From contig NZ_CADFEN010000006.1 in assembly GCF_902833145.1 (NCBI RefSeq), positions 372,001-436,000 of the forward strand: a stretch of 64,000 nucleotides of DNA, given 5' to 3'. The translations under genes and the position numbers were made by a program. Within the stretch, counting starts at the first letter, position 1. Each line of letters starts with the position of its first letter. The stretch comes from Burkholderia sp. BCC0506. GTDB taxonomy: Bacteria; Pseudomonadota; Gammaproteobacteria; Burkholderiales; Burkholderiaceae. Below, one piece after another: positions 20,207-61,704 of this stretch. The notes beneath the pieces were generated by a model, which searched no databases, was not told the origin of the DNA, and saw only the letters and a program-made list of their open reading frames with translations.

Positions 20207-21394
<1,188 letters not shown>

Positions 21395-21458
21395 TTTTTC
21401 AGGCTCCTGTGTGGTTACGGTTGGTTTCACGTAGCCAGCTTCGTTGGGCCTGAAGCGG

Positions 21459-21546
21459 CGACGCTTTAGCGGATTACCAGGACCGGGCAGCGCGTGTCGC
21501 GCCAACCGGCTTCGCCCCGCAAGTTGTCAGTTAACTCGGCGAAGCC
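21459..21546 (-). promoter_or_regulatory. SAM-II-like riboswitch candidate in the metK leader
   Basis: Read on the minus strand, P1 is GGCTTCGCC (21546-21538) with GGCGAAGCC (21516-21508), a perfect 9-bp stem. Its 21-base loop ends in TTGCGG, which can pair with CCGC at 21472-21469. GAC (21528-21526) can pair with GTC (21462-21460), bracketing the conserved TAAAG (21468-21464). A small hairpin GCGC-GACAC-GCGC lies in the connecting loop. This is the H-type pseudoknot order of SAM-II. The first loop reads GAGTT instead of the usual GATTT, so ligand binding is not certain. Downstream, TTCAGGC (21454-21448) can pair with GCCTGAA (21404-21398) between the ribosome-binding site and the GTG. Confidence 0.65.
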
Positions 21547-21549
21547 CGT

Positions 21550-21576
21550 ATTATAGCGGCTTTCCTGAATTGTCAC
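21550..21576 (-). promoter_or_regulatory. metK promoter
   Basis: On the minus strand a perfect -10 box TATAAT (21555-21550) lies 15 bases after GTGACA (21576-21571), which matches the -35 consensus at five of six positions. Transcription would begin near 21543, just at the foot of the riboswitch-like P1 stem. Confidence 0.7.
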
Positions 21577-39210: not shown

Positions 39211-39241
39211 CCGACTTGCCGCCCCCTCGGCGGCAGGTCGG
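39211..39241 (+). promoter_or_regulatory. Long hairpin at the 5' end of the metX leader
   Basis: CCGACTTGCCGCC (39211-39223) and GGCGGCAGGTCGG (39229-39241) pair over 13 positions with one G-U, around the loop CCCTC. It would form at the very 5' end of the mRNA and may protect it. Without a following U-run it is not a terminator of the gene upstream. Confidence 0.7.
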
Positions 39242-39243
39242 AA

Positions 39244-39340
39244 GCGCGCCGATTTGCTGACTCGATTGCGGGCGCGCGAACCGGCCGGGGCGTGAATGTG
39301 CGTTCGTCCCGGCGGTTCACTACAAATGCGGCTAAAGAGG
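39244..39340 (+). promoter_or_regulatory. SAM-II riboswitch aptamer upstream of metX
   Basis: P1 is GCGCGCC (39244-39250) with GGCGCGC (39271-39277). Its loop begins GATTTG and ends GATTGCG, as in SAM-II. TTGCG (39266-39270) can pair with TGCGG (39327-39331), and CTC (39261-39263) with GAG (39337-39339), giving the H-type pseudoknot around the invariant GCTAAAGAGG (39331-39340). A hairpin at 39279-39317 (AACCG/CGGTT and CCGGG/CCCGG) is inserted in the long loop. SAM-II elements bind S-adenosylmethionine and repress translation of methionine genes. Confidence 0.87.
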
Positions 39341-39406
39341 TCGTCAGCCGCGCACCTTCGCCTCCGCGCACCGCCGACACCGTTTAGCCGCCCAGTCATA
39401 AGGCGG
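39328..39406 (+). promoter_or_regulatory. Translational expression platform of the metX riboswitch
   Basis: GCGGCTAAA (39328-39336), part of the SAM-binding core, is exactly complementary to TTTAGCCGC (39383-39391). The overlapping CCGCC (39388-39392) is complementary to GGCGG (39402-39406), the ribosome-binding site of metX. The two helices exclude each other. With SAM bound the core is occupied, so CCGCC can mask the ribosome-binding site; without SAM the 9-bp helix forms and frees it. Confidence 0.75.
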
Positions 39407-60969: not shown

Positions 60970-61704
60970 TCACAGCGGCGCTTCGGTCACCCGCTCGCCC
61001 TTCAGGTAGGCTTCGTAGCCGCGCTTGCGCAGCTTGCACGCCGGGCATTCGCCGCAGCCGAAGCCCCAGTCGTGCAATTCCGCGCGCTCGCCCACGTAGC
61101 ACGTGTGCGTCTCGACGCGGATCAGCTCGACGAGCGCCTCGCCGCCGAGCTGTTCGGCGAGCTGCCAGGTCTGCGCCTTGTCGAGCCACATCAGCGGCGT
61201 CTCGAGCACCATGCGCGTGTCCATCCCGAGATTCAGCGCGACCTGCAGCGCCTTCATCGTGTCGTCGCGGCAGTCGGGATAGCCGGAAAAATCGGTCTCG
61301 CACATCCCGCCGACCAGCACGCGCAGCCCGCGGCGATAGGCGATCGCCGCGGCGATCGTCATGAACATCAGGTTGCGGCCCGGCACGAACGTGTTCGGCA
61401 GGCCGTTCGCCGCCGTCTCGATCTCGATCGTGCGCGTCATCGCGGTATCGCTGATCGCGCCGAGCACCGACAGGTCGATCATGTGATCGTCGCCGAGCCG
61501 GTCCGACCACGCCGGAAACTTGCGCTTCAGCGCTTCGCGCACGCCTTCGCGACACTCGAGTTCGACGCGATGACGCTGCCCGTAATCGAAGCCGAGCGTC
61601 TCGACCGTCTGGTAGCGTTCGAGGGCCCACGCCACGCACGTGGCCGAGTCCTGCCCGCCGGAAAACAACACGAGCGCGCCGTCTTTAGCGTCTGTCCGAA
61701 TCAC
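60970..61704 (-). CDS. queC: 7-cyano-7-deazaguanine synthase QueC
   Basis: QueC converts carboxydeazaguanine to preQ0 with ATP and ammonia. The 244-residue protein has the PP-loop [40 protein letters not shown], and the zinc-binding [20 protein letters not shown]. Translation most likely starts at GTG 61704 ([14 protein letters not shown]), because the frame further upstream is Arg/Pro-rich and unlike the family. I looked for a preQ1 riboswitch in front and saw none. Confidence 0.95.

Follow-up and report, generated by a model that had tools for sequence, protein, structure and literature searches.

A SAM-II-like pseudoknot in the metK leader of Burkholderiales, a candidate riboswitch for product feedback on SAM synthetase

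SAM synthetase, the product of metK, makes the methyl donor of most methylation reactions, and SAM-VI occurs at metK in other lineages. Passages of two papers (PMC2864571, PMC4239095) also place SAM/SAH (RF01727), SAM-III and SAM-Chlorobi at the metK of other lineages, and the SAM/SAH RNA is, according to the part of PMC7367207 drawn on here, likewise an H-type pseudoknot. For the beta-proteobacteria, the relevant passages of Leyn et al. 2014 (PMC4239095) leave metK without a known methionine regulator, their own attempts to find one having failed; the leader element that they do describe has, in those passages, only metX and metZ as named targets. A start-site study in B. cenocepacia that compared long 5' untranslated regions with Rfam names the SAH and sucA motifs, and not metK, in its passages on that comparison (PMC4603805). 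In the sections of the open-licence literature consulted, no description of a metK element in beta-proteobacteria was found.

The pocket of SAM-V (RF01826), whose numbering was mapped onto the metK element in this analysis, is described in passages of PMC6061858: U47, in contact with U8, binds the adenine of SAM, the sulfonium lies opposite the U20:A48.U9 triple, and the A50 of an A50-A18 pair holds the aminoacyl end, both U47 and A50 being bonded to SAM. According to the same passages, P2a includes the Shine-Dalgarno (SD) sequence in at least 86% of SAM-V elements (PMC6061858). We show herein that a SAM-II-like leader precedes metK in at least 49 genera, which makes it a candidate answer to the missing metK regulator of beta-proteobacteria. 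Judged from sequence comparison, the leader is likely to be a riboswitch that provides product feedback on SAM synthetase; its element probably senses SAM and represses metK.

The window, the whole stretch of DNA analysed, is 64 kb long. In it, metK (20207..21394, - strand) encodes a 395-aa SAM synthetase that matches PDB chain 3iml_A (E 6.7e-255). The gene starts with GTG at 21394-21392, and the Shine-Dalgarno sequence AGGAG, assigned from sequence, lies at 21404..21408 on the same strand. The pseudoknot of the metK leader occupies 21546-21460, also on the - strand, as do all of its parts. P1 pairs GGCTTCGCC (21538..21546) with GGCGAAGCC (21508..21516), a covarying strand, and the sequence of its loop is GAGTTAACTGACAACTTGCGG. 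The L1 third strand, GAGTTAACT (21529..21537), keeps the equivalents of U9 and U10 and has G at the equivalent of U8. P2a is formed by GAC (21526..21528) and GTC (21460..21462), and P2b by GCGG (21517..21520), which is preceded by UU at 21522-21521 (the U19 and U20 equivalents), and CCGC (21469..21472); both helices covary. The UAAA at 21465..21468, equivalent to U47, A48, A49 and A50 of SAM-V, is present in all 73 metK elements selected by covariance model (CM). Between P1 and P2 stands an insert hairpin, GCGCG-ACA-CGCGC (21490..21502; 21502-21498 paired with 21494-21490), which is variable in length and missing in many genera.

A sequence-only reading of this DNA had named P1, the small hairpin, P2b (GCGG/CCGC), P2a (GAC/GTC) and a pairing of TTCAGGC with GCCTGAA (21454-21448/21404-21398), and all of these are present where that reading had put them. 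Its count of nine P1 pairs is right for the window, but conservation is limited to the inner six. A descriptor made of P1, L1, TTGC, P2b and GCTAAA has its sole match in the 64-kb window in the metK leader, and because no second site is found the pseudoknot is not a chance occurrence. A second CGCTAAAG at 61683-61690 is at chance level (0.97 expected), and the descriptor does not match there. By folding energy alone the leader does not stand out (z -1.19, with 22 of 200 shuffles equally good). The metK frame is also open upstream to TTG 21505 (21505-20207, - strand, 432 codons), and a gene caller could be led by this to add 37 residues to MetK across the putative riboswitch; an N-terminal extension from this TTG was rejected, being without conservation.

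The position of the promoter bears on the length of P1. A -10 box, TATAAT (21550..21555, - strand), ends 3 nt before P1, and its position is conserved among the leaders of relatives: of 69 leaders, 63 have a box with at least 5 of 6 matches in the 20 nt that precede P1, versus 6 of 276 control windows, and in 57 of the 69 the gap between box and nominal P1 is 3-4 nt. The usual spacing between a -10 box and the transcription start is 6-7 nt. Given this spacing and the conserved box, metK transcription probably starts inside the first P1 strand, so that the working P1 would be about six bp; the outer three P1 positions probably lie at or upstream of the start. Among 69 sequences these outer pairs fail to form in 37, 37 and 29, and the inner six are almost always paired.

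By a motif rule, 70 of 80 metK loci of other species carry the pseudoknot. The locus of a Vallotia endosymbiont (L017) holds a decayed copy (21.3 bits), 8 of the 80 loci give no match above 8 bits, and L062 offers just 3 nt of upstream sequence. Ten loci (L017, L038, L039, L041, L043, L045, L046, L047, L062 and L076) were left out of alignment A1, which has 71 rows, the window included, and is the source of covariance model R1. The rows of A1 were picked by the motif G[A/G]GTTA plus GCTAAA[G/T], and the invariance of the motif columns in it is thus by construction. In its own 7.3 Mb genome, R1 scores the metK leader at 81.3 bits, as expected for a window that is among the 71 training rows, and the next site at 14.7 bits; within the 64-kb window it finds nothing besides the metK leader at E<=10. 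A search of 399 sampled Burkholderiales genomes with R1 at E<=0.01 gave matches in 206 of them, spread over 102 of 158 genera; a second sample, drawn from the class with Burkholderiales included and overlapping that of the order, gave 33 matching genomes out of 274. Both counts mix metK elements with elements at other genes, which account for a large share of the weak matches. The search of the order returned 30 loci, and in 29 of them the gene directly downstream is metK. The same holds for 81 of 109 strong R1 matches examined, these 81 representing 49 genera; the 109 consist of 29 of the 30 returned loci (the own genome being omitted) and 80 picked among the matches listed, with genomes already fetched and the weaker end passed over, and L300, on a contig that runs out after 300 bases, is among the 28 not followed by metK.

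The helices are maintained by compensatory change. In A1, pairing is seen in 88.1% of cells versus 78.6% with the 3' letters shuffled (0/500), double-change cells number 149 versus 62.7 (0/500), and the covariation score is 0.301 versus 0.144; sliding the partners by 1-3 columns brings pairing down to 26-46%. P2b varies by genus, as GCGG/CCGC, GCAG/CTGC, GCAA/TTGC, GCGA/TCGC or GCGT/ACGC. P2a is mostly GAC/GTC, or G(A/G)(A/G)C/GTTC with a coordinated extra pair, the four-base 5' arm being found in 19 of the 19 GTTC leaders of A1. A second alignment, A2, comprises 101 CM-selected rows (98 distinct) from 100 of the 109 loci, namely 20 of the 29 plus the 80, and, being selected by R1, inherits its bias. 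Over the 98 distinct rows P2b is 98.7% paired, with 35 double-change cells, and P2a is 83.3% paired. Two further statistics of A2 are weak: pairs with double changes were reached by 19 of 500 shuffles, and further pair types were not above shuffles, 499 of 500 being as high. Since R1 encodes P1 alone, P2 was not fitted by the model. As judged from these alignments, P1, P2a and P2b covary across relatives. Loss of P1 and of the GAC/GTC and GCGG/CCGC pairs in relatives had been named as grounds for giving up the sequence-only reading; these pairs are kept, with covariation.

By the Rfam rule the element is SAM-II-like and not SAM-II, because none of its scores is over the cut-off. In the window, no relevant match came from Rfam, whether at the gathering thresholds or at permissive E-values; a permissive match to a MIAT exon was rejected as chance. 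The SAM-II model (RF00521, cut-off 36 bits) does not match the window element. On the R1 elements of 40 genomes it gave nothing over 36 bits and weak matches in two (G031, 20.9 bits; G239, 20.4 bits), in a set where a non-metK gene follows the best R1 element in at least four genomes (G170, G223, G027, G297); elsewhere in the genome, 13 of the 40 have a SAM-II match over the cut-off. A sub-threshold SAM-II match of 22.1 bits on the metK leader of L053 was the sole one among 16 loci scanned. Neither SAM-V (threshold 41 bits) nor SAM-II long loops (RF01726, threshold 44 bits) matched the R1 element in the 40 genomes, and the SAM/SAH, SAM-III, SAM-Chlorobi and SAM-VI models had no match in the window. 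The covariance model from metK leaders that the sequence-only reading had called for was thus built, and the SAM-II and SAM-V models give no over-threshold match on the element. R1 in turn is marginal on canonical alpha SAM-II (best L177, 14.2 bits, E 0.067). One metZ leader (G043:C1:1470145) is matched by both models, at 26.7 bits by R1 and, below threshold, at 31.5 bits by Rfam SAM-II, which supports common descent with SAM-II.

The likenesses and differences can be set out against each described system. With SAM-II (RF00521) the metK elements share an H-type pseudoknot with P1, P2b and P2a, the L1 third strand, the UUGC and GCUAAA core, a methionine-pathway target, and C at the position 18 equivalent. 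They differ in having G for U8 in most cases (the metK element of the window has G in place of the U8 of the SAM-II third strand GAUUU), a P2a of 3-4 bp, an optional insert hairpin, a platform that masks the SD and start, and a best SAM-II score seen of 22.1 against a cut-off of 36. Common to them and SAM-V (RF01826) are the pocket residues, the proposed control of translation and, where the element is long, a hairpin standing between P1 and P2; in contrast to SAM-V, the SD of the metK element (21408-21404) lies about 50 nt past P2a (21462-21460) and is masked by a separate helix. The metXZ element is, in the relevant passages of PMC4239095, also a pseudoknotted leader in the same bacteria, but it has metX or metZ as its target and a proposed terminator, whereas the metK element of the window is without a U-run before the SD. 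On these comparisons the metK element is a new variant within the SAM-II/SAM-V superfamily, outside the Rfam threshold. This suggests that a sizeable group of SAM-II relatives is missed by current Rfam models.

Two helices that exclude each other through shared strands lie 3' of P2a, on the - strand. P4 (21429..21464), GCGT-C-GCC-GCTTC with GAAGC-T-GGC-T-ACGT, has GTC in common with P2a and GCC-GCTTC in common with the other helix; its general form is GCGTC-GCC with GGC-N-ACGC, to which the window adds GCTTC/GAAGC. The other, here called the off helix, pairs GCCGCTTCAGGC (21448..21459) with GCCTGAA-AAA-GTGGC (21390..21404), and its 3' strand covers the SD end and the GTG start. Written out as GCCGC-TTCAGGC / GCCTGAA-AAA-GTGGC (21459-21448/21404-21390), it is longer than TTCAGGC/GCCTGAA. 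When own strands were compared with strands permuted between species, own strands paired more strongly: the off helix of 55 representatives gave -931 versus -725 (sd 22.5; 0/5000) and P4 gave -604.6 versus -550.5 (sd 8.1; 0/5000). After correction for composition, in 27 stricter representatives, the off helix gave -6.09 versus -1.49 (sd 0.59; 0/5000), and P4 was weaker (17/5000).

Equilibrium folding reveals no switch, and for that reason the switch model is put as a kinetic one. Burial of the SD on blocking the P2a strand was expected and was not seen in 71 leaders: by partition-function folding, the SD and start are largely paired either way, with a mean unpaired value of 0.21 when the P2a strand is left free versus 0.25 when it is blocked, a quantity that falls in 25 and rises in 46 of the 71. 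The window folds with the off helix at -26.5 kcal/mol versus -15.9 with SD and start held open. The off state of the sequence-only reading thus stands as a helix that is present and coevolves, but equilibrium folding is unchanged by the block that was expected to favor it. We infer the ligand (SAM), the direction of control and the kinetic choice alike, and the proposed scheme would run as follows. The RNA would begin at P1, which would form first during transcription. With SAM in the pocket, P2a, P2b and the third strand of L1 would lock into the pseudoknot and tie up GUC (21462-21460), so that P4 (21464-21429) could not use it; with P4 prevented, GCC-GCUUCAGGC (21459-21448) would be free for GCCUGAA-AAA-GUGGC, and the resulting off helix would mask the SD end and the GTG start, turning translation off. 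Without SAM, P4 would form first and hold both GUC and the anti-SD strand, and ribosomes could start, since the anti-SD strand would be held by P4; translation would be on.

The pocket bears on the identity of the ligand. The equivalents of U9, U10, U19, U20, G21, C22, C46, U47, A48, A49 and A50 are present in 73 of 73 metK rows of A2 and are unchanged also in the 28 other rows, an invariance that is partly built in, the model having been trained on rows picked by the GTTA plus GCTAAA motif. The claim of the sequence-only reading that the element is SAM-II-like and diverged is borne out in that the core contacts are retained, G replaces U8 and the Rfam models do not recognize it. The U8 equivalent is G in 61 of the 73 metK rows, the window included, and U in 12; it is G in 12 of the 28 other rows, which include L300. 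A change of A18 to C as a metK-specific feature of the pocket was rejected: the position 18 equivalent is C in 72 of 73 metK rows, and canonical alpha SAM-II matches have C in 21 of 29 and A in 7 of 29. The change of U8 to G represents a natural experiment on the role of the third strand in SAM-II/SAM-V pockets. Because U8 is altered, the pseudoknot might serve another methionine-cycle ligand, e.g. SAH or a mixed SAM/SAH response. The bias toward G at metK (61/73 against 12/28) and the contact that U8 makes in SAM-V with U47, the adenine binder (passages of PMC6061858), would fit such a change, but the U20:A48.U9 triple credited with SAM versus SAH discrimination is intact in 73 of 73, U8 is retained in 12 of the 73, the product of the target gene makes SAM, and a separate SAH riboswitch (RF01057) lies near metK in 6 of 16 relatives' loci scanned. 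Another ligand is thus unlikely in our judgement. Since G8 may still be able to donate a hydrogen bond to U47 O4, SAM would be the likeliest ligand, its affinity or specificity possibly being altered.

The level and agent of control admit other readings. Transcription termination, in the manner of the metX/metZ elements, would agree with the terminator-antiterminator mechanism that passages of Leyn et al. 2014 propose for metXZ (PMC4239095) and with the terminator-like hairpins with U-runs that follow, by eye, in most metZ relatives; we hold it to be quite improbable for metK, where the window's leader has no U-run between P2 and SD, and where the 3' half of the leader pairs with the SD and start in a coevolving manner. 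That Rfam does not recognize the element could also mean that the leader is the target of a protein, be it a ribosomal one, MetK or an RNA-binding regulator, and that the likeness to SAM-II is convergence. This is very unlikely: conservation falls on the bases that make up the SAM pocket, and the same architecture is found ahead of metZ, metX, metH and metN genes, as would fit a shared small-molecule sensor. Conservation at the level of DNA or coding, as an operator or as extra N-terminal residues of MetK, can draw on the open 432-codon frame (21505-20207) but is scarcely credible: base-pair changes are compensatory, the aptamer stretch ranges from 62 to 128 nt among relatives with non-triplet indels, and homology to the 395-aa MetK starts at residue 1, 2 or 3 in 80 relatives. 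A SAM-responsive riboswitch that controls translation of metK is the reading we prefer.

R1, although trained on metK leaders alone, also finds metZ, metX, metH and metN leaders, and the genes behind non-metK R1 elements were confirmed by NCBIfam for L200, L199, L209, L214 and L211. The metX/metZ leaders found by R1 have the form GATTTGA...CAGCTTGC...GCTAAAGCG and are probably the metXZ element of Leyn et al. 2014, as far as the passages on it describe it (PMC4239095). It is possible, though we lean slightly against it, that the metK element is a distinct class of the SAM-II superfamily with a pocket re-tuned by U8 to G, and one arm of a larger, mostly unrecognized SAM-II-like regulon of Burkholderiales that would take in metZ, metX, metH, metN, MoxR-like ATPases and a small, uncharacterized MYDC/MFDC protein (often then a MATE exporter), with tandems as a two-step logic gate.

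Several observations were made alongside. The window itself holds, at 39236-39345 on the + strand, a SAM-II-like leader of metX (NCBIfam) with the core GATTT...ATTGC...GCTAAA and a long insert, part of which Rfam SAM-II matches at 17.3 bits, below the cut-off; it too is probably the metXZ element, on the same passages of Leyn et al. 2014 (PMC4239095). SAM-II-like elements stand upstream of metH (L209, L214) and metN (L211), identified by NCBIfam, and genes for methionine synthase or a methionine ABC transporter follow elements also in L212 (by eye) and L248 (tblastn). In L220, a metK (NCBIfam) from the same class and another order has a SAM-II match of 39.2 bits, over the Rfam cut-off. A genome from the same family as the window has, at G031:C1:1328605-1328674, a sub-threshold SAM-V match (29.1 bits, E 0.008) that does not coincide with its R1 element.

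Tandem SAM-II-like elements, roughly 90-180 nt apart, occur in L181-L190, L110, L222, L223, L225, L229, L252 and L258. In L181-L190 the first element is followed, by eye, by a terminator-like hairpin with a U-run. In four genomes with tandems, the Rfam SAM-II model gives the first copy 44.8, 36.9, 34.3 and 34.2 bits. Downstream of the tandems of L181-L189 come genes for a small MYDC protein and a MATE transporter rather than metK. MYDC/MFDC small proteins of about 95-115 aa stand directly behind metK-type elements in many Burkholderiales (L184:452-787, L313:70-411, L282:104-400, the tandem L181-L189 and about 20 more); Pfam gave no match on the three from L184, L313 and L282. A MoxR-like AAA+ ATPase (L225:1621-3051; Pfam AAA_5, bpMoxR) follows a similar element, as do, by eye, MoxR-like ATPases in L271, L273, L280 and L221. 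A further form of the element, CGGATTTAATCGATAACTTGCC...GGCTAAAGCGTCGC, precedes an open frame of roughly 60 aa in L193, L194 and L195, and in L193 and L194 this frame is followed by alanine dehydrogenase (NCBIfam alaDH for L193).
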